IMG/VR virus record: IMGVR_UViG_3300006176_000008
Coordinates: 1-34,302 of that record
Strand: one strand, 5' to 3'
Length of the DNA stretch: 34,302 nt
Origin: a virus
Within the stretch, counting starts at the first letter, position 1; each line of letters begins with the position of its first letter. Made by a program: the position numbers and the translations under genes. This document shows, piece by piece, positions 5,950-20,632 of the stretch. Under the pieces are notes generated by a model that saw only the letters and a program-made list of their open reading frames with translations, had not been told where the DNA came from and searched no databases.

Positions 5950-6609
5950 CTATGCTGCGGGAAGATATTGCAATGCGGTTTCGTGCATTTGCTTCAACAT
6001 CCCCACAGCCTCTAAACCCTCTTTCTCTGCCTCAGCCATCAACAAAGGTAATCCAGTGTCGATGGATTCCTCGATTTCGGCTCGGGTTGCTTTGCGGCCT
6101 CTCGCGTACCAATCGATACGAATGGGTTTTCCCAGATGAAATAACACACCATCCCCTGCTTGAAAAGGCTTTGCTTTTGAAGTTTGGTAAAGAGCGACGG
6201 CGCCGGGATTCCTTTGAATTGCATTCCCAGCTGTTACTGGATGCTCGATCATGTCCTTGTAATCCCGTTTTTGGCGCGGATTAGTCAGGAACGGGCAAGC
6301 CTTAGCGGCGAACTCCGCGCACTCGCGATGGTTGGGCGGTTCTGAGGTGACGCGGTTAATCACACACATGGGTCCAATGACAAAGATCCGTGAAGATCCA
6401 ATCAGGGATCGTCCACAGATCCAACATCGGCTTTCGTTATAGGCTTGAGTCAATTTGCCGGGACCAATAATCCGAAAGTCAGGCTCGCCCCTCCCTGGGG
6501 GACAGGGTTCACCTCCTTTCAGCCATGCAACGAACCAGGGAACTGGATAACCGCGGCTATCTTTATGTAGATTGGCGATACGGGCTGGTATTTCTGGTAA
6601 GTTGATCAT
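5950..6609 (-). CDS. Conserved phage zinc-binding-like protein, paralog of 9040-9618 (219 aa)
   Basis: The protein opens with LPEIPARIANLHKDSRGYPVPW, continues to CWICGRSL (about residues 65-72), then IGPMCVINR, EPPNHRECAEFA and KACPFL. The Cys/His spacing suggests one or two zinc sites. The gene at 9040-9618 encodes the same series of motifs in the same order. The family is familiar from phage genomes as conserved hypothetical proteins; its role is not established. The start is ATG 6609, overlapping the stop of 6606-6776 as ATGA; a reading extended to 6690 would overlap that gene further. The C-terminal third is helical and charged and is not shared with the paralog. Confidence 0.75.
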   Translation of the reverse strand: MINLPEIPARIANLHKDSRGYPVPWFVAWLKGGEPCPPGRGEPDFRIIGPGKLTQAYNESRCWICGRSLIGSSRIFVIGPMCVINRVTSEPPNHRECAEFAAKACPFLTNPRQKRDYKDMIEHPVTAGNAIQRNPGAVALYQTSKAKPFQAGDGVLFHLGKPIRIDWYARGRKATRAEIEESIDTGLPLLMAEAEKEGLEAVGMLKQMHETALQYLPAA

Positions 6610-6776
6610 CTTGTCTCCCAGTAGGCTTTGAAAATTCCCCAAAAAATCATAGCACCGCCGGGAATGAAAAAAGCATAAAACCCATACCAATTATAGGTTA
6701 ATTCCCACATGAATAGACCCAAACACAGGACAAATAACCCCATAACTATGGTAGAAACGCCTGGAATTGAAAACAT
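6606..6776 (-). CDS. Small two-span membrane protein (56 aa)
   Basis: Two hydrophobic segments (about residues 8-24, IVMGLFVLCLGLFMWEL, and 29-50 including FYAFFIPGGAMIFWGI) are separated by a short polar turn, with a basic or polar C-terminus (KAYWETR). Size and topology are those of small phage membrane proteins, including some class II holins, but there is no lysis gene next to it to support that. ATG 6776 follows AGGGGA at 7 nt; the longer reading to 6824 lacks a ribosome binding site. It is coupled to the next gene through ATGA. Confidence 0.6.
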   Translation of the reverse strand: MFSIPGVSTIVMGLFVLCLGLFMWELTYNWYGFYAFFIPGGAMIFWGIFKAYWETR

Positions 6777-6799
6777 GGGTTTTCCCCTAAAATAAGGGT

Positions 6800-6835
6800 G
6801 GGATCGAGGCAGCGGGGGGCGCACGCCTCGATCCC
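6800..6835. terminator. Strong hairpin downstream of the PEP-CTERM gene
   Basis: GGGATCGAGGC (6800-6810) and GCCTCGATCCC (6825-6835) form a perfect 11-bp stem with a 14-nt G-rich loop. It lies between the PEP-CTERM gene and the next minus-strand gene. On the minus strand it is followed by CACCCTTATTTTAGG, which is only partly T-rich, so it may be a weak terminator or an mRNA-stabilising structure. Confidence 0.45.
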
Positions 6836-6894: not shown

Positions 6895-6944
6895 TCAGTG
6901 GAAGAGTCTGCGGAGGATTGCGGTGCTCCATGACCTTCCACTGA
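6895..6944. repeat. Inverted repeat just beyond the PEP-CTERM stop codon
   Basis: TCAGTGGAAG (6895-6904) and CTTCCACTGA (6935-6944) are perfect 10-bp inverted repeats, 30 nt apart, starting six bases beyond the stop of the PEP-CTERM gene. They could form a 3' end hairpin or mark the edge of an inserted cassette. No T-run follows. Confidence 0.5.
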
Positions 6945-6949
6945 ATTGT

Positions 6950-7597
6950 TCAGACGGCGTATCGTGCCGTCCGGTTACGCTTGTATCCCATGAACGCAAG
7001 CAGACCGAATCCAGCGACCAACATCGCCCAAGTCGAGGGCTCGGGAACATTGGTCGTCAACTGGATTGATCCGCCGAACGATTGCCGCGGCGCCGTGAAA
7101 TCCACAGCGAATTGGGTTTCATCCGAAGTGAACGGTCCAGTTGCCGATGAGACCGGTCCAAAGGAACCGTCGAGCAATGCGGCAGGGAACGTGTGCGTGG
7201 CGAGTAGCCCACCATTCGCAAACGTGCTCTCGGTTGTTGGGCCGGGATCGTTGGTCAAGCCGTTGACCGTAAAGGTCGAGAGCGTGTTTCCGAGCCCGGT
7301 GATTGCGCTTTGGAGAACATCGATGGTCAGTTCGTGCGCGCCAGTAAAGCCTACTGCCGCTGTGGCGTCGAGTGTGACGCTTGACAGATCGGCATTGGGC
7401 AGAATAGGCGAGCCCTGAGCATTGATCGTGATATTGGCGAAATTGGCATCGTTGGCTGTAAGCGAAGCCGCTCCCGTCGTGACCCCTGTGATGTTGTCGA
7501 TCAACGTTCCGTTATCGAACACCTCGATTTGCAGCGTGGCGTTGGCAGCACTTGCGAACCCTACAAGTGCCGTAGTGAGGAGGATAGTTTTTAACAT
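6950..7597 (-). CDS. PEP-CTERM sorting-domain surface protein (215 aa)
   Basis: The N-terminus MLKTILLTTALVGFASAANA is a classical Sec signal peptide with ANA cleavage site. The mature part (about residues 21-180) is Thr/Asn/Ala/Gly-rich and beta-rich, without Cys. The C-terminus (about residues 184-215) is a canonical PEP-CTERM tripartite signal: VPEPSTWAML, hydrophobic helix VAGFGLLAFMG, then basic YKRNR. In bacteria such proteins are recognised by the membrane protease exosortase (EpsH/Xrt) and sorted to the envelope or exopolysaccharide. No exosortase gene is in the window, so a host enzyme would be needed. The PEPSTWAML variant resembles alphaproteobacterial proteins. AAGG precedes the ATG at 7 nt. 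Visibly GC-richer than flanking genes and with its own regulatory region, it looks like a host-derived moron. Confidence 0.9.
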   Translation of the reverse strand: MLKTILLTTALVGFASAANATLQIEVFDNGTLIDNITGVTTGAASLTANDANFANITINAQGSPILPNADLSSVTLDATAAVGFTGAHELTIDVLQSAITGLGNTLSTFTVNGLTNDPGPTTESTFANGGLLATHTFPAALLDGSFGPVSSATGPFTSDETQFAVDFTAPRQSFGGSIQLTTNVPEPSTWAMLVAGFGLLAFMGYKRNRTARYAV

Positions 7598-7693: not shown

Positions 7694-8236
7694 TTATCCT
7701 ACTTGCCCGCTGTGTTCCTCACGCCTCACCCTCTCTTTTCCTTTATCCGTTAGAGCGTAGCCACGAGGATGAACCTTGATTGCCTCTCCCCGAGCGACCA
7801 TCTTAGTGATAGCTCCCATAGCGGTTCCTGGCTCAAATCCCTCAACCTTGAGCATCCGTTTCAATTCGGCAAGGCCCATTGGGCCCCCATTGTCAGATAG
7901 AAACTGGGCAAGGAAGTGGTGAGCCGGTTTGCCGGAAGGGTGATAGAAACGATCGGCGAATGGAATTCTATTGCCTTTTGGCTTTGGTTTTGCCTTTGGC
8001 TTTTTCTCGGCTGATTTCGCCTCCTTCATCCGCTTAGCCATAGATGGCATTTCTGCCTCAATCACTGGGGGACGATTAGTGGCGATTTTTTGAACATCAA
8101 CCAGTTCGACGCCAGGAATCTTTAGGAGTTCTTGGAGTACCGAACTGTTTAGCGTGTTAATTGTTACTTGGTATGTTGGAAATTCCCAGTGATGCATATC
8201 ACCCTTATTGAGGGTATCAAGGAACGTCTTAGGCAT
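7694..8236 (-). CDS. Probable winged-helix DNA-binding protein (180 aa)
   Basis: The N-terminal domain (about residues 1-60) is small and mixed (FPTYQVTINTLNSSVLQELL). A Lys/Pro/Ala-rich linker (about 68-90) follows. The C-terminal domain (about 95-175) has the helix-helix-helix-wing pattern of a winged helix: HHFLAQFLSDNGGPMGLAELKRML, then TAMGAITKMVARGEAIK and the wing HPRGYALTDKGKERV. DNA binding is inferred from this pattern. ATG 8236 is preceded by GAGGAG at 8 nt and lies 4 nt after the small gene at 8241-8369. The promoter at 8376-8404 should drive both. A role as phage transcriptional regulator is plausible but unproven. Confidence 0.7.
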   Translation of the reverse strand: MPKTFLDTLNKGDMHHWEFPTYQVTINTLNSSVLQELLKIPGVELVDVQKIATNRPPVIEAEMPSMAKRMKEAKSAEKKPKAKPKPKGNRIPFADRFYHPSGKPAHHFLAQFLSDNGGPMGLAELKRMLKVEGFEPGTAMGAITKMVARGEAIKVHPRGYALTDKGKERVRREEHSGQVG

Positions 8237-12511: not shown

Positions 12512-12600
12512 TTGCTCTTACTCCTTTTAGGTTATTGGGGCGCTACGCGCTTAAAGAACCTTTGACCACAACCAGAAAACTTAACTGAGGAGTGAAATAT

Positions 12601-13287
12601 ATGCCTAGAGTTACCGGTTTCCTCCGAATTCTACCGTCGCGTGATCGTTGGGGTCGTCCTGTTGACCCCGACTATGGTGTGGATGAAGGTGAATTGCCGG
12701 AAGTCGAACCGCCGGAAGGTGAATATCCCGATCAAGGTCTCCCTGGTCGTCCTCCAGGTTTCTGGGGCGGTGAACGTCCCAGTTGGCCTGCACGACCTGG
12801 TCAAGGTTTGCCTCGACCGCCTCGTCCAGGCCGGCCGATCGATCCTGATTGGGGTTGGGGTGGTAGTGAACATCCTGACCAAGGACTTCCTTCGCGTCCG
12901 CGTCCTCCGCATGTATGGCCACGACCTCCAGGCGGCGGACTCCCCGTTGATCCGAGTTGGGGTGTCGGCGGTGGTCGTCCGGGTGGTACTCCTCCTGATC
13001 GTCCCGATCATGGATTGCCGATCTGGCCGTCTATTCCCGGCAAGCCTGACAACAGTCTACCCCCAGTTGAAGGTGTTGACCCGCCTCCAACTGATCCGCC
13101 TCCGGGCACAATTTGGCCGCCGTTGCCGCCAAACATTCCCCCAGGCAAAGCTATCGCACTTGTGGCGATCTCGGGCGTCGGCTATCGTTATGCTGTGATC
13201 ACGATTCCGACACCGCCGGCAGGCGGTGCAGGTGGAACGCCGCCTGCTCGTCCAGGACCGACACCTCCCCCGACACCAAAAGCCTAA
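12601..13287 (+). CDS. Pro/Gly-rich repetitive protein with conserved C-terminal domain (228 aa)
   Basis: Residues about 15-170 are built of degenerate repeats such as PVDPDYGV, YPDQGLPGRP, PIDPDWGWG, HPDQGLPSRP, PVDPSWGVGG and PDHGLPIWP. The sequence is then PP-rich up to WPPLPPNIPPGKAIALVAISG, followed by a hydrophobic beta segment VGYRYAVITIP and a Pro/Gly tail. ATG 12601 follows GAGGAG at 8 nt; the GTG at 12592 is too close to that site. Proteins of this kind sit between the terminase subunits or near head genes of related phages, but I know of no assigned function. An extended, disordered structural or host-binding protein is a reasonable guess only. Confidence 0.7.
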   Translation: MPRVTGFLRILPSRDRWGRPVDPDYGVDEGELPEVEPPEGEYPDQGLPGRPPGFWGGERPSWPARPGQGLPRPPRPGRPIDPDWGWGGSEHPDQGLPSRPRPPHVWPRPPGGGLPVDPSWGVGGGRPGGTPPDRPDHGLPIWPSIPGKPDNSLPPVEGVDPPPTDPPPGTIWPPLPPNIPPGKAIALVAISGVGYRYAVITIPTPPAGGAGGTPPARPGPTPPPTPKA

Positions 13288-13406: not shown

Positions 13407-14693
13407 GTGAACGCACCTTTTCAAATAAATATGCCAGAGCTACACCCGGGGCAGGTTGAAGCTTTCAAAATGCCAGGCCGATTTAGGGCTGGACGTTGTG
13501 GACGTCGCTTTGGTAAAACAGCATTGGCAGAAACCATCATTGAAGATGGAACTGTTAGAGGAAGGTCGATTGGTTATTTCGCTCCGTCTTATAAGCTTTT
13601 ATCCGAAGTCTTTGTTTCCGTACGCCATGTTTTACAGCCATTAATCGAAGTATCCAATCAAACATCTGGAGTTATTCGCCTTATAACTGGTGGACGAGCA
13701 GATTTCTGGAGCTTAGAGAATAAGGCAGCAGGTCGGTCGAGGAAGTATCATACCGTCATTATCGATGAGGCGGCATTCACTCCCGATTATATGTTGCAAA
13801 CGTGGGAAGGTGCTATTCGCCCCACACTCCTAGATTATCGAGGCAATGCGTGGGTCTTTTCGACCCCAAATGGAATAGATACCGACAATTTCTTCTGGCG
13901 CGTCTGCAACGACCCAAAATATGAGTTTAACTCCTTTCATGCTCCAACATGGAAGAATCCATACATTCCCCCAGATGAAATAGAGGCTTTGCGTCGTAGC
14001 CTTCATCCTCTGTTCTTTCGCCAAGAAATTGAAGCCGAGTTTATTGATTGGCGCGGTGTTGCCTTCTTCACTCTTGCCAATCTCTTGGTCGATGATAAAC
14101 CTGTCGATTATCCCTTCCTGTGTGACCTTGTCTATGCGGTCATTGATACGGGGATGAAATCAGGTAAAGAGCATGATGGAACGGCAGTTACCTATTATGC
14201 TTCCTCCTTGATGCTGGGGGTCGGGCATCCATTGGTCATTCTCGATTGGGATATCCTGTCGATTGATGGAGCTATGCTTGAGGGATGGCTTCCTTCTGTT
14301 TTTGAGAGACTGGGGGAATTATCCGCAAAATGTGGAGCGATGAACAGGAAAGTTGCAGTCTTTATAGAGGATAAAGGCTCTGGAACAGTGCTTATTCAGC
14401 AAGCACAGAATGCTGGGCTGCCTGCTCACCCCATCGAAGGAAAGTTGACCGCGATTGGTAAAGATGAACGGGCGATGAATGTTTCGGGGTACGTCTGGTC
14501 CAATAAGGTGAAAATCAGCGAGTATGCCTTCATAAAGGAGACTCAATATAAGGATCAGTTCCAAAACCATCTTATCCATCAAGTAACAGGATTCCGGGTA
14601 GGGGACAAGGACGCAAAGGATCGGGCCGATGACCTCTTGGATACCTTTACTTACGGAGTTAGCATTGGATGTGGAAACACAGAAGGCTTCTGA
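13407..14693 (+). CDS. terL: Terminase large subunit (428 aa)
   Basis: The N-terminal ATPase has LHPGQ (about 12-16), a terminase-type Walker A RCGRRFGKT (30-38), Walker B VIIDEA (117-122) and the coupling motif FSTPNG (151-156). The C-terminal RNase-H-like nuclease has Asp247 in VIDTGM, Glu321-Asp322 in FIEDKGSGT and Asp408/409/412 in RADDLLDTF. The protein cuts concatemeric DNA and drives it through the portal. Length is typical. The start may be GTG 13407 or the in-frame ATG 13431; neither has a strong Shine-Dalgarno. Its end overlaps the GerE-type regulator gene. Confidence 0.95.
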   Translation: MNAPFQINMPELHPGQVEAFKMPGRFRAGRCGRRFGKTALAETIIEDGTVRGRSIGYFAPSYKLLSEVFVSVRHVLQPLIEVSNQTSGVIRLITGGRADFWSLENKAAGRSRKYHTVIIDEAAFTPDYMLQTWEGAIRPTLLDYRGNAWVFSTPNGIDTDNFFWRVCNDPKYEFNSFHAPTWKNPYIPPDEIEALRRSLHPLFFRQEIEAEFIDWRGVAFFTLANLLVDDKPVDYPFLCDLVYAVIDTGMKSGKEHDGTAVTYYASSLMLGVGHPLVILDWDILSIDGAMLEGWLPSVFERLGELSAKCGAMNRKVAVFIEDKGSGTVLIQQAQNAGLPAHPIEGKLTAIGKDERAMNVSGYVWSNKVKISEYAFIKETQYKDQFQNHLIHQVTGFRVGDKDAKDRADDLLDTFTYGVSIGCGNTEGF

Positions 14694-14985
14694 ACGCGGG
14701 GTAATAAGGAAACTTTCGCGTAGAGAAGTGGAATGTTTAGCGTGGGCAGCACAAGGTAAAACGTATCAGGAAATTAGCACTATGTTAGGTATATCGTTTG
14801 GATCAGTAAAAACTCACCTTGATACGGCGCGATTTAAGTTGGGTGCTGTTAATGTAACCCATGCAGTGGCTCTGGGTATTATTTATGGTAAAATATTTAT
14901 GTCGGAGGAAGAGATGGTTACTCGGGAAAAAAAGACTAGGGAAGATGCCGAGCGAATGATTGGTGAAATGGGTGTAATAAGATAG
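14629..14985 (+). CDS. Stand-alone LuxR/GerE-type HTH protein overlapping terL (118 aa)
   Basis: Residues about 27-88 are a canonical GerE/LuxR DNA-binding domain: KLSRREVECLAWAAQGKTYQ, EISTMLGISFGSVKTHLDTA, then RFKLGAVNVTHAVALGI. No receiver or autoinducer domain is attached. The short C-terminus is charged and helical. With ATG 14629 the gene overlaps terL by 65 nt; a TTG at 14665 with GGAG six bases upstream is an alternative start. Being inside the late operon just after the terminase, it could regulate late genes or act on the host. Such single-domain HTH proteins are common at this place in alphaproteobacterial phages. Confidence 0.85.
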   Translation: MTSWIPLLTELALDVETQKASERGVIRKLSRREVECLAWAAQGKTYQEISTMLGISFGSVKTHLDTARFKLGAVNVTHAVALGIIYGKIFMSEEEMVTREKKTREDAERMIGEMGVIR

Positions 14986-14994
14986 GAGTGCCAA

Positions 14995-15189
14995 ATGTTA
15001 GGTTCACCAATAGTCCTCATCCTTATCGTTATCCTTATCATTGTTCTGCTTGGAGGTGTGGCTGGACCTACGATTAATCCCAATTGGCGTTATGGCTACG
15101 GCTATGGTCATACGGGCATTGGTTTAGTTGGCATTATCCTTATCATATTGGTTGTTTGGCTCTTGCTTGGTGGTGGATATCTGAGGTGA
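14995..15189 (+). CDS. Small hydrophobic membrane protein, DUF3309-like (64 aa)
   Basis: Two long hydrophobic segments (about residues 5-22, PIVLILIVILIIVLLGGV, and 42-59, GLVGIILIILVVWLLLGG) flank a Gly/Tyr/Trp loop (NWRYGYGYGHTG). This pattern matches the small DUF3309-type proteins (LLIxLxLLLLG, WGYGPSG, second helix). ATG 14995 is preceded by AGGAG at 6 nt. It overlaps the next gene by GTGA. In bacteria these are membrane proteins of unknown role; in a phage late operon a holin-like role cannot be excluded, though no endolysin is adjacent. Confidence 0.7.
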   Translation: MLGSPIVLILIVILIIVLLGGVAGPTINPNWRYGYGYGHTGIGLVGIILIILVVWLLLGGGYLR

Positions 15190-17024: not shown

Positions 17025-18633
17025 TATTATTGTCAATGCCCCTGCTACGGGCACGTTTTTAGGGCGTATCATTAACTCCGAGGATATTCAACCCGGGGAT
17101 GACTCGTCCTATGAAATGTGCAAACTCATATACCTTTACCACCCTTTAGGTGCTAGGGTAGCTGAGAACCCTATTACATTGGCTCAGTCCCAACCCCGAG
17201 AGATTAAGGTCCGAGCGTGCCAGAATGATGACGTTGCGGATCAATTTATTTCGGAATGGGAGTCTCTGAACGCCGATAAAATCATTCATGCTGCCAAAAC
17301 CATTTCACGAGTCTATGGAATTTCCACGCTGGGGTTACTTGCTCAAGGTGTTCCACCCAATCGCCCGATTGACTATAAGACCATTAAAGACCTGAAAATT
17401 GGCTTTAACGTATTCGATCCTTTGAATACATCGGGCTCCTTGTCAATGGACCAGGATCCCAATTCTATTCGATTCCAGAAACCAATTGATGACTCTGTTC
17501 GGGTTGCAGGGACGGAATATCATCCCTCACGTACAGTTGTGACCTTAAATGAACAACCCATTTATATTGCTTGGACGACTTCTGCTTATGGTTATGTGGG
17601 CCGTTCCTGTTATCAAAGGTCTCTTTATCCGCTCAAAAGCTATATTGATACCTTAAAGATGGATGCAATGATTGCCCGTAAAGCGGGCGTCATTATTGCC
17701 AAGCTCAAGATTATTGGTCCCATTGTCAATAATGCTATGGCGATTATGGCCGGTTTGAAACGGGCTATGTTGCGGGAGGCTTCTACCGATAACGTTATTT
17801 CCATTTCTGTGGATGAAGCAATTGAGAGCCTGAATCTCCAAAATCTTGAGGGTCCAGCCGAAATGGCTCGGAATCATATTTTGGAGAATATTGCTTCTGC
17901 CGCAGATATGCCCTCCAAGCTGCTCAATTCTTTACCCTTCGCTGGGGGCTTCGCTGAGGGTAAAGAAGATGCTAAAGCCATTGCTAAGTATGTTGATGGT
18001 GTCCGAAAAGACATGAATCCGCTTTACGAGTTTATGGATCGAGTTTGTATGTACAGGGCTTGGACCCCTGAGTTCTTTGAGGCCCAAAGAAAGAAATATC
18101 CCGAAGCCTACAAGAATATGACCTTCACAAAGGCTTTCTATGATTGGAAGAATAGTTTTGTTGCCACGTGGCCCTCACTTCTTGTTGAGCCAGAATCCGA
18201 GAAGATCAAGATATCGGACACGAAGCTAAAGGCTATTATTGCCATTCTTCAAGTCCTCCTGCCAGTTATCGATCCCGAAAATCGCATGGAGCTTATCAAG
18301 TGGGCTGTCGATGCGATCACCGAAGATACCAAGATGTTTTCCAACGGCATCAAGCTCGATTGGAAAGTTTTGGCTGAATACGTGCCCCCAGAAGCAATGG
18401 CTGTGTTGGCAGGTCAACAAGGTCTTGAACAGGGAGAGGGAACGAAGGGCGGAGCACAAACGAAAGGTGGTGCGGGTGCTAAACCTGGTGTTCCTGCCAA
18501 GTCAGGAGCCCTTCCCCCAGGTGTTGAGAAAGGACCTCAGGGAACTCCTGGACGAGCAAAGGTGAAACTATCGACCGCAGATGCATTGGAATTGTTTGAG
18601 AACATAGTGGAGTTAAATCGTGCCTCTTCGTAG
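17017..18633 (+). CDS. Portal protein, DUF1073/SPP1-gp6-like (538 aa)
   Basis: The sequence matches the DUF1073 portal family: an N-terminal wing with HPLGARVAENPITLAQSQPR and SRVYGISTLGLLAQ, a central beta region, a long helix region (YPLKSYIDTLKMDAMIARKA), then SADMPSKLLN-type clip and stem segments (SAADMPSKLLNSLPFAGGFAEG). A Gly/Lys-rich linker (about 465-510) and a short C-terminal tail end the protein. Twelve copies form the vertex through which DNA enters. Start is TTG 17017 with AGGGGA upstream, overlapping the previous gene. The end overlaps the next gene by 14 nt. Confidence 0.9.
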   Translation: MADIIVNAPATGTFLGRIINSEDIQPGDDSSYEMCKLIYLYHPLGARVAENPITLAQSQPREIKVRACQNDDVADQFISEWESLNADKIIHAAKTISRVYGISTLGLLAQGVPPNRPIDYKTIKDLKIGFNVFDPLNTSGSLSMDQDPNSIRFQKPIDDSVRVAGTEYHPSRTVVTLNEQPIYIAWTTSAYGYVGRSCYQRSLYPLKSYIDTLKMDAMIARKAGVIIAKLKIIGPIVNNAMAIMAGLKRAMLREASTDNVISISVDEAIESLNLQNLEGPAEMARNHILENIASAADMPSKLLNSLPFAGGFAEGKEDAKAIAKYVDGVRKDMNPLYEFMDRVCMYRAWTPEFFEAQRKKYPEAYKNMTFTKAFYDWKNSFVATWPSLLVEPESEKIKISDTKLKAIIAILQVLLPVIDPENRMELIKWAVDAITEDTKMFSNGIKLDWKVLAEYVPPEAMAVLAGQQGLEQGEGTKGGAQTKGGAGAKPGVPAKSGALPPGVEKGPQGTPGRAKVKLSTADALELFENIVELNRASS

Positions 18634-20632
18634 TGGATCATCTAAGAAGGTGATCCAAAGAAACATAGAGACCGAAATACACGCGGGGAAGGATCCCAAG
18701 CAGGCTGCGGCTATTGCTTATGCAAAGGCGCGTGGAGATGATGCTGAGGTGAAAGCTGCTGGGATTTTATTCAGGAGTCCAGATGACAAGTTCCTATTTA
18801 TGCTCCGCTCTGATAAAGGAGATATGGGTGGATATTGGGGAATACCTGGCGGTAAATTAAAGGATGGCGAGACCGCTGAAATTGGTGCTGTTCGAGAGGC
18901 TGTTGAAGAAACAGGGTTCAATCCTGGAACTTTGGACGGTGAGCTATGCCGCTACGTCGCTGACAATGTGGATTTTACCACATTCGTCAAGGAGGTCGAT
19001 GATGAATTCCGATGCAAACTTGATGACGAACATACCTCTTATGGATGGTTCACAGCCGATGAAGCCCAGTCAATCAATCTCCATCCCGGCGTTGCTAAGG
19101 CGCTTCGTCGTCCTAGAATGGATGAGATGGAAATCTCCAAGTCGATGGCACATGAAGGATTAAGTTCTCCCCAGAGGGTTGAGAATGCTACCTTCTATGT
19201 TATGCGTGCGACAGGGACGGGGTTTTCGCATCGTCCCTCATTAGATGAATATGTCTACCGAGATCCACAAATTTGGTTGACTCCTGGTCTCGTAGAACGC
19301 ATGTCCGGAATACCTGTGATTTGGTGGCATCCGCCAGATGCCACTTTGAATAGTGAGGAGCATAGAAAACGGGTAGTTGGAACTACCGGTTACTCATGGA
19401 TTGAGGGAGATCAGATTAATGTTGTGGCACGGATTTATGACGATGAGGCCAATGAACGTTTAGCCGATCATACCTTATCTACGTCACCCACTGTGGTGTT
19501 TGGTGATCCAACCGAGAATACGACCTTAAAGCTTTCGGACGGATCCACTTTATTGATTGAAGGTAAACCCACGTATGTGGATCATTTAGCAGTTTGTAAA
19601 ACGGGTGTTTGGGACAAAGGCGGACCACCAGAAGGAATCCGAGCAGATATGGTTAGAGCGGATTCAACCGAAGAATCTGAGGGCGTTCCAGAGCGAATAC
19701 CCACAGGAGTGTCAACATCGAAAGGAGTCACGGATATGGCCGAAGAGAAAAAAGAAGAGAAGAAAGAGGACGCGGCGATCAAGGACGATGCGAAAAAGGA
19801 CGATGCTGCGAAGGCAGACACTCGTTCCGATTCCGAGAAGATTATGGACGCGGTAGGCGCTATTGCCAAGTCCTGCGACGCTCTTTCCAAGCGCATGGAT
19901 GCTTGGGAGGAGGAGAAGGAAGAGAAGAAAAAGGCTGACGCTACGGCAGCAGACGCCAAGAAAGACGATGCGAAAAAGGACGATGCGAAGAAGGACGACG
20001 GCGATCTTCACCTCCTTCACAAGAAGGATGATGACGCGAAGAAGGACGATGCGAAGAAGGACGACGCGAAGAAGGATGATGCTGCGGTGGCCGATGCTGC
20101 CAAAGCTGATGCCGCTCGCGCCGACGCAACCGCGGCGGAACTCGTAGCGACCAAGAAGCGCCTTGCTGAATTGGAAGCTGCATTGCCTCAGATCAAGGCG
20201 ATGATTCCAAAGCAGTTGTCCGATGAGGACTTCAACGCGATGGCAGAAATTCAATCCAAAGCGGATTCTGTTTATCAAGGCTTCAATAAAAAGGCCTCAC
20301 GTCCGCTCGACGGCGAAACCAAGCTCAACTATCGCCGCCGTCTTGCCAACGGGTTGAAGGAATTCAGCGCCGATATCAAGGACGCCGACCTCTCTATCAT
20401 TCCCGAGGGCGCCTTCTTCGATAGCATCGAGCGGCGTATATATGCCGATGCTACCGAAGCCTCTATGCATCCTCAGGATCTGGAGGACAACGAAATCCGT
20501 GCCGTCTCCAAGCGGGACGAAGCGGGTCGCAACATCACCACCTTCCATGGCAAAAAGACGTTTATCCACCAGATGGCTCGTCCCCGTCAGGTCGTGAGTC
20601 GCCTTGGAGTGCCCCACCGCAACCAGCACTGA
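18620..20632 (+). CDS. Nudix - DUF2213 head protease - scaffold fusion protein (670 aa)
   Basis: Residues 1-40 hold a short phage motif (SSKKVIQRNIETEI, KDPKQAAAIAYAKARG). Residues about 45-165 form a Nudix domain with a complete box at 78-100 (GKLKDGE, REAVEETGF; all catalytic Glu residues present), which would hydrolyse nucleoside diphosphate-linked substrates. Residues about 180-345 match DUF2213, a head maturation protease-type domain (GIPVIWWHPPD, SPTVVFGDP, YVDHLAVCKTGVWDKGGPPEG). The remainder is a highly charged scaffold-like part with DDAKK repeats (about 390-490) and a compact C-terminal end. GTG 18620 follows GGAG. The protein would act inside the assembling prohead. An internal start at 19736 probably also makes the scaffold alone. 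Confidence 0.85.
   Translation: MPLRSGSSKKVIQRNIETEIHAGKDPKQAAAIAYAKARGDDAEVKAAGILFRSPDDKFLFMLRSDKGDMGGYWGIPGGKLKDGETAEIGAVREAVEETGFNPGTLDGELCRYVADNVDFTTFVKEVDDEFRCKLDDEHTSYGWFTADEAQSINLHPGVAKALRRPRMDEMEISKSMAHEGLSSPQRVENATFYVMRATGTGFSHRPSLDEYVYRDPQIWLTPGLVERMSGIPVIWWHPPDATLNSEEHRKRVVGTTGYSWIEGDQINVVARIYDDEANERLADHTLSTSPTVVFGDPTENTTLKLSDGSTLLIEGKPTYVDHLAVCKTGVWDKGGPPEGIRADMVRADSTEESEGVPERIPTGVSTSKGVTDMAEEKKEEKKEDAAIKDDAKKDDAAKADTRSDSEKIMDAVGAIAKSCDALSKRMDAWEEEKEEKKKADATAADAKKDDAKKDDAKKDDGDLHLLHKKDDDAKKDDAKKDDAKKDDAAVADAAKADAARADATAAELVATKKRLAELEAALPQIKAMIPKQLSDEDFNAMAEIQSKADSVYQGFNKKASRPLDGETKLNYRRRLANGLKEFSADIKDADLSIIPEGAFFDSIERRIYADATEASMHPQDLEDNEIRAVSKRDEAGRNITTFHGKKTFIHQMARPRQVVSRLGVPHRNQH
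19736..20632 (+). CDS. Nested in-frame scaffold protein (298 aa)
   Basis: Within the protease gene, AAAGGAG (19721-19727) stands 8 nt before an in-frame ATG at 19736 that opens MAEEKKEEKK. From this Met (residue 373 of the full protein) to the end only the scaffold part is made. This matches the long-known arrangement of lambda C and Nu3, in which the scaffold is translated from inside the protease gene. The product is Lys/Asp/Ala-rich with a predicted long helix and a globular C-terminus (SFYQGF- and YADATEASMH-like segments). Separate expression is inferred from the ribosome binding site. Confidence 0.7.
   Translation: MAEEKKEEKKEDAAIKDDAKKDDAAKADTRSDSEKIMDAVGAIAKSCDALSKRMDAWEEEKEEKKKADATAADAKKDDAKKDDAKKDDGDLHLLHKKDDDAKKDDAKKDDAKKDDAAVADAAKADAARADATAAELVATKKRLAELEAALPQIKAMIPKQLSDEDFNAMAEIQSKADSVYQGFNKKASRPLDGETKLNYRRRLANGLKEFSADIKDADLSIIPEGAFFDSIERRIYADATEASMHPQDLEDNEIRAVSKRDEAGRNITTFHGKKTFIHQMARPRQVVSRLGVPHRNQH
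19952..20080 (+). repeat. Repeats encoding DDAKK units in the scaffold
   Basis: Units of the form GACGATGCGAAGAAG recur in tandem, giving AKKDDAKKDD. The array is split by a short insertion (20001-20021) encoding GDLHLLH. The repeats explain the highly charged helix and are a likely place for copy-number variation. Confidence 0.8.

Follow-up and report, generated by a model that had tools for sequence, protein, structure and literature searches.

Phages of several lineages encode a likely exosortase substrate, a PEP-CTERM protein whose core is exchanged at fixed loci

The closest described relative of the gene considered here is the PEP-CTERM/exosortase (EpsH) system of Gram-negative bacteria (PF07589, TIGR02595), whose substrates combine a signal peptide, a divergent, beta-rich middle and a C-terminus made up of Pro-Glu-Pro, a hydrophobic helix and a basic end. 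PEP-CTERM proteins tie exopolysaccharide (EPS) to the cell surface (PMC12188702). The phage protein shares this plan but, unlike the bacterial system, it is phage-encoded without an exosortase gene, it occupies one slot per lineage and its middle is swapped between conserved signal sequences. The PEP-CTERM proteins in PMC12642866 are host genes, and no phage-encoded one was found in the literature that we searched, at the level of titles and abstracts and with subscription papers mostly outside the search; to that extent the initial annotation was right that PEP-CTERM proteins have no established phage role. Among NCBIfam models the FxDxF family (NF038126) is the best match by E-value for the proteins of two types described below (types 1 and 2), with E-values down to 9e-12 for a diverged form, type 1b. 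However, all of the phage proteins stay below its 50-bit cut-off and the type 1 core alone is not matched.

There is precedent for virulent phages expressing surface exclusion proteins, T5 Llp being an example (PMC9586334). Like the T5 lipoprotein Llp and Cor of T1-like phages, the protein studied here would be a small exported product of a virulent phage acting at the host surface. This is a functional analogy only, as in our protein an exosortase tag takes the place of the lipoprotein anchor, and the core, a beta sandwich, is larger. It also recalls phage morons and lysogenic conversion genes in being a separate cargo gene with its own upstream region (in the window) and a history of horizontal exchange, but differs from them in that there is no evidence of lysogeny and that the position is fixed while the core is replaced. 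The sorting system and phage exclusion proteins are thus both known; judged against the literature visible to us by title and abstract, their combination and the exchange of cores within a gene appear to be new.

The gene lies in a 34,302-base stretch of viral DNA (IMG/VR record IMGVR_UViG_3300006176_000008), hereafter the window. Because the window encodes terminase, portal, tail sheath, tape measure and baseplate hub families, we take it to be a fragment of a contractile-tailed phage. Other loci are cited by their L numbers. The features that matter are as follows.

6950..7597, minus strand: coding sequence for the 215-aa PEP-CTERM protein, which is of type 1
7538..7597, minus strand: part predicted from sequence to encode the signal peptide, residues 1-20; L023/L200 DNA identity stops at the equivalent point
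7049..7537, minus strand: part encoding the core, residues 21-183, a beta sandwich in the model; swapped between phages
6953..7048, minus strand: part encoding the PEP-CTERM tail, residues 184-215, with PF07589 at residues 184-206 and a modeled helix at 189-214; similar in L272
7644..7667, minus strand: operator-like dyad GAACATTAA-N6-TTAATGTTC, upstream of the gene and conserved in L272
7669..7674, minus strand: TTGACT, possible -35 element beside the dyad; conserved in L272, TTGACA in L010 and L034
6895..6944, no strand: inverted repeat beyond the 3' end of the gene; its arms span 6895-6904 and 6935-6944
7694..8236, minus strand: gene bordering the slot upstream; homologue in the same place in L271/L272 (61%)
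6606..6824, minus strand: gene bordering the slot downstream; homologue in the same place in L271/L272 (53%)

The reading frame runs from an ATG at 7597 to a stop at 6950-6952 on the minus strand; the coordinates and length originally assigned to it were exact. The N-terminus, MLKTILLTTALVGFASAANA, reads as a Sec-type signal peptide and is helical in the structure model. The proposed PEP-CTERM C-terminus was borne out by profile comparison, as the protein scores 30.2 bits against PF07589 (Pfam cut-off 20.7) and 22.7 bits against TIGR02595 (TIGRFAM cut-off 16); it falls short of the cut-offs of NF035944 (29.5 vs 35) and of the FxDxF family (40.5 vs 50 bits). An AlphaFold2 model (pLDDT 71, pTM 0.65) places a helix at residues 2-14, a beta sandwich at 21-181 and a C-terminal helix at 189-214, the last corresponding to the expected hydrophobic helix with its basic end (KRNRTAR terminus). 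From these sequence features the product is likely to be an exosortase substrate. At L058:1339-1995 a type 1 core has a different C-terminus, VVPGPVVGAGLPGVIVGCGFLVLLAMTRRKARGLVV, which matches nothing in NCBIfam and is possibly another sorting signal.

The gene had been described as standing alone with a promoter-like/operator region and flanking inverted repeats, a description that survives in part. It does have its own upstream region, but it sits within a block of minus-strand genes and so is not isolated. The dyad occurs once in the window, where 0.02 occurrences would be expected, and the stretch TTGACTGGAACATTAAATTATGTTAATGTT is carried identically by L272, giving at least 30 identical bases across TTGACT and the dyad. 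The operator part of the description therefore stands. A strict sigma-70 scan called no promoter at the gene, TTGACT included, and the promoter assignment accordingly relies on the conservation of the upstream stretch. Downstream, inverted repeats are indeed present, a second one having its arms at 6800-6810 and 6825-6835, but no terminator-like site was found downstream of the type 1 gene.

Several other window genes have counterparts among the phages that carry this family. A LuxR-type helix-turn-helix (HTH) protein (14629-14985) has relatives in other carrier lineages, and the small two-helix membrane protein beside it (14995-15189) resembles, by eye, small membrane proteins encoded there. 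Relatives of a Gly/Pro-rich protein with a PVDPDYG motif (12592-13287) occur in 19 loci and in other lineages are often encoded immediately upstream of the PEP-CTERM gene. A single 670-aa protein (18620-20632) joins a NUDIX domain to a region resembling a head maturation protease.

Relatives of the type 1 protein are encoded at 65 IMG/VR loci, and a profile rescan of the viral contigs returned the same contigs. These loci encode 55 distinct proteins, part of them truncated at contig ends, and PF07589 was detected in 40 of 42 carrier records. Contig IMGVR_UViG_3300027855_000003 encodes a protein identical to that of the window; since relatives are found at 64 further loci as well, we rejected a chimeric join or host contamination as the source of the gene. 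When type 1 itself is excluded, shared proteins sort the carrier contigs into seven groups plus two single contigs, which we refer to as about eight lineages. Carrier genomes range from 0.39 to 0.65 in G+C and the neighbors of the gene vary by lineage. Group B, which gave a terminase match and a weak portal match, has almost nothing in common with the other groups. In L032 and L040 a second, unrelated PEP-CTERM protein is encoded about 2 kb downstream of type 1 (L032:11810-12568, L040:11839-12597).

Outside these contigs we found little. No type 1 relative was present among 50,697 deposited phage genomes or in PHROGs, and type 2 likewise gave no match in the phage collection; nor did a type 5 protein, for which the query was a shortened sequence joined from two ends and the result is only indicative. 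Among 398 Pseudomonadota genomes, a profile of the type 1 core found no match, which does not prove absence, and the type 2 core was not matched in the same 398 genomes. Two peptide patterns from the type 1 core matched no bacterial genome contig, an empty answer that shows little in the absence of a positive genome. Eight other genomes produced one weak fragment (E 2.7e-4), and a plasmid match to the type 1 protein was confined to its C-terminal part. Searching the PDB by sequence with the window protein gave no match.

Evidence on how the gene evolves comes from loci where the flanking genes are matched and the core is not. For group B we used a portal query to collect 80 loci and counted the 65 that had both borders of the slot, that is, the stretch from the portal to a scaffold-like gene. 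The slot held type 1 in 11 loci, type 1b in 3, type 2 in 10, type 3 in 6 and no PEP-CTERM gene in 35; types 2 and 3 are unrelated to type 1. A PEP-CTERM-type protein was present at 29 of the 33 loci with portal identity of at least 79%, vs 1 of 32 below 75%. L199 and L200 have portals that are each 96% identical to the query, yet their slot types differ. The tails of the slot proteins read PEPSTWAM, PELSTWAM, PEASTWAM and similar. At L220, L229, L256 and L247, where the PEP-CTERM gene is absent, HNH-endonuclease-like reading frames were seen by eye in or beside the slot.

Pairwise DNA alignments, from which the clear cases of tail conservation come, locate the exchange within the gene. L023 (type 1) and L200 (type 2) share 89.4% identity from upstream of the gene to nt 668; with the gene starting at nt 609, only its first 60 nt, coding for the signal peptide, are covered. 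No match was seen in the cores, and 89.3% identity resumes at nt 1161 (codon 185) and continues through the tail and past it. L023 and L211 show the same pattern (81% and 87%). In the nearest relatives of the window, L271 and L272 (terminase 89%, helicase 85%), a type 2 protein (L272:12865-13452) replaces type 1 between homologues of the two border genes; window and L272 DNA are 71.6% identical up to the start codon, without identity in the core and 77.8% identical over codons 184-207, after which the match extends into the downstream region. We interpret this loss of identity in the core, with its return at the tail, as intragenic recombination in the interval flanked by the signal-peptide and sorting-tail sequences. 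Breakpoints were mapped to the domain borders in lineages B and E; the other lineages show replacement at the same locus only.

Similar core replacements were found in six lineages. With matched flanks, type 1 gives way to type 4 in F (L291) and C (L293), to type 2 in the L016 subgroup of A, A16 (L276), and to another core in G (L309). Type 2 also occurs in an F-like contig with a different gene order (L281), and viral contigs L292 and L296-L308, not all of which have been shown to be phage, encode PEP-CTERM proteins with yet other cores. Homology among the cores of types 1-4 was undetectable (hhalign probability at most 1.3%). Within each lineage, then, the gene stays at one position and what varies is the core, for which there are several interchangeable, non-homologous alternatives. 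We also asked whether tails invariably remain in their lineage, which is not so in general (same lineage with other core 0.45, other lineage with same core 0.48); signal peptides do tend to remain (0.59 vs 0.45).

The core itself is under strong purifying selection. Mean pairwise identity of residues 21-183 is 88% in protein and 80% in DNA, with signal peptides at 55% and tails at 51%; mean pS is 0.50 and mean pN 0.09 (1,176 pairs), and the 162 gapless columns of the core alignment have a mean identity of 92%. The gene is GC-richer than its surroundings, as the initial annotation had it (0.57-0.58 vs 0.48 for the window). We considered whether this excess reflects recent import from a host and found no support, because core GC3 tracks the G+C of each phage (r = 0.87), which argues for long residence in these phages. 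On the core tree, a short alignment with many weak branches, there are 17 changes of lineage label (minimum 7, shuffled mean 28.8), and we therefore consider the core to be partly inherited within lineages and repeatedly exchanged between them.

As to lifestyle, neither a tyrosine integrase (PF00589) nor an exosortase (PF09721) was detected in the 42 carrier records, all of which are fragments. PF00239 recombinases were found in 4 of 36 records, all of group C, with open frames of 243-315 aa, which is short for a large serine integrase. Because neither enzyme was found, the carriers look like virulent phages that use a host exosortase; absence from fragmentary records is suggestive in this respect, and processing of the tag would have to rest on the host enzyme. 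The earlier proposal that the protein keeps a lysogen in a biofilm finds no support in the same integrase and recombinase data. Host leads are diffuse: (i) an endolysin shared by carriers has matches of about 50% in Beta- and Gammaproteobacteria; (ii) the nearest relative of the group-F terminase is from an Ochrobactrum phage (52%); (iii) the LuxR-like protein of the window weakly matches Rhizobium and Aeromonas phages and (iv) no tRNA was found in the window or in 17 loci scanned. Negatives from a phrog_2 search were discarded because it overlooked the terminase known to be present in L272. The endolysin, phrog_894, is found in L009, L011, L020, L026, L036, L043 and L059, which are otherwise different phages; five other aligned copies are 79-92% identical to the L011 copy, and it is often a few genes from the PEP-CTERM gene.

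The model of the type 1 core is a jelly-roll sandwich. Its best structural match is the Epf adhesin (Z 9.6), followed by rotavirus VP6 (Z 9.2), which matches as well as carbohydrate binders do, Bd1399 (8.8), SGBP-B (8.3), CBM51 (8.2) and CBM4 (7.9); against CBM4, CBM51, CBM61 and a surface glycan-binding protein the pLDDT 71 model gives Z 7.3-8.3, middling values in a range where Z under 8 can mean a mere common arrangement. The modeled fold is near adhesin and carbohydrate-binding domains and fits glycan or surface binding. The type 2 model (pLDDT 62) is usable only as 'beta-rich'.

We favor the possibility that virulent-type phages carry this gene as cargo at a fixed, lineage-specific position and would produce from it a Sec-exported precursor. 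A host exosortase would recognize the PEP-CTERM tail and cleave it, and the beta-sandwich core would then be handed on to the cell surface or the EPS. The core would be the working part, swapped by recombination between the coding sequences for signal peptide and tail, so that each phage may display one of several cores. There it would cover or alter a surface glycan or receptor, and further phages would fail to adsorb to the infected cell; the same exclusion would spare released progeny from loss on debris. T5 Llp achieves this through a different mechanism. The idea that the protein alters the host surface and blocks superinfection, already raised from the sequence, is therefore plausible. 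Surface exclusion, whether of re-adsorption or of competing phages, is our preferred function by analogy and because of the modeled carbohydrate-binding-like fold, the selection on the core and an exchange that resembles that of specificity modules. Counting against this, conservation of the type 1 core across phages with presumably differing receptor-binding proteins suggests a common host target and not the particular receptor of each phage. We are highly confident of the genetic description alone, that is, a phage gene family with a tag and core exchange; the whole explanation, with surface exclusion as the most likely function, we hold tentatively, at somewhat below an even chance.

Exclusion proteins are as a rule expressed early, whereas the position of the gene among morphogenesis genes in groups B and F fits late expression better and counts against exclusion. 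The same position favors a role in release, in which the displayed core would bind or loosen host EPS or capsule late in infection and free progeny from the matrix after lysis. The gene is near endolysin and holin-like genes in several lineages (L043, L036, L009 and L026), the modeled fold is carbohydrate-binding-like, and a link to EPS has been described for PEP-CTERM proteins (PMC12188702). However, no lysis cassette adjoins the gene in the window or its relatives, where it belongs to a minus-strand helicase/HTH block; in addition, no enzyme motif was found and the position of the gene varies between lineages. We regard a release role as unlikely, though worth keeping in view. A benefit to the host in a carrier or pseudolysogenic state (a stickier surface, retention in biofilm, protection from predators), a broader form of the earlier lysogeny proposal, would accord with the action of PEP-CTERM proteins in flocculation and biofilm (PMC12188702, PMC9850573), with repressor-like PHROG matches of the window HTH protein and with the gene having its own upstream region and dyad. 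Set against this are the integrase and recombinase results above and the presence of the phages' own replication genes (DNA polymerase, primase/helicase) in several lineages, and we consider it less probable again. We rank surface exclusion ahead of both.

Two further scenarios leave the core without a function. If the tag served as a decoy that saturates or blocks host exosortase and EPS export, a constant tag on non-homologous cores at one locus would be permitted. However, conservation is much higher in the core than in the tail (88% vs 51% identity, with pS 0.50 and pN 0.09 for the core), which argues that the core does something itself and makes a decoy improbable. The scenario to which we give the least credence, and very little of it, is an ordinary protein of host origin that was spread by chance or that represents host DNA contaminating viral contigs. 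PEP-CTERM proteins are typical of bacteria and type 2 resembles the bacterial FxDxF family, but this scenario has to contend with purifying selection on the core, 65 viral loci across about eight lineages, fixed positions between phage genes and bacterial genomes searched without finding a relative.

Returning to surface exclusion, we can envisage virulent phages that are unrelated but probably infect a single host group and draw on a common pool of exosortase-tagged surface proteins. Constant signal peptides and tails would serve as addresses, the cores would be interchangeable units of specificity, and core type would define exclusion groups independently of phage phylogeny; this more specific proposal is possible, if more doubtful than the explanation as a whole. 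Our results suggest that many different, apparently virulent soil phages share a stock of surface proteins that would serve to control the surface of the infected cell. If this is correct, virulent phages would have recruited a poorly understood surface-sorting pathway of their hosts, providing a new handle on that pathway, and core types would predict which phages exclude which.
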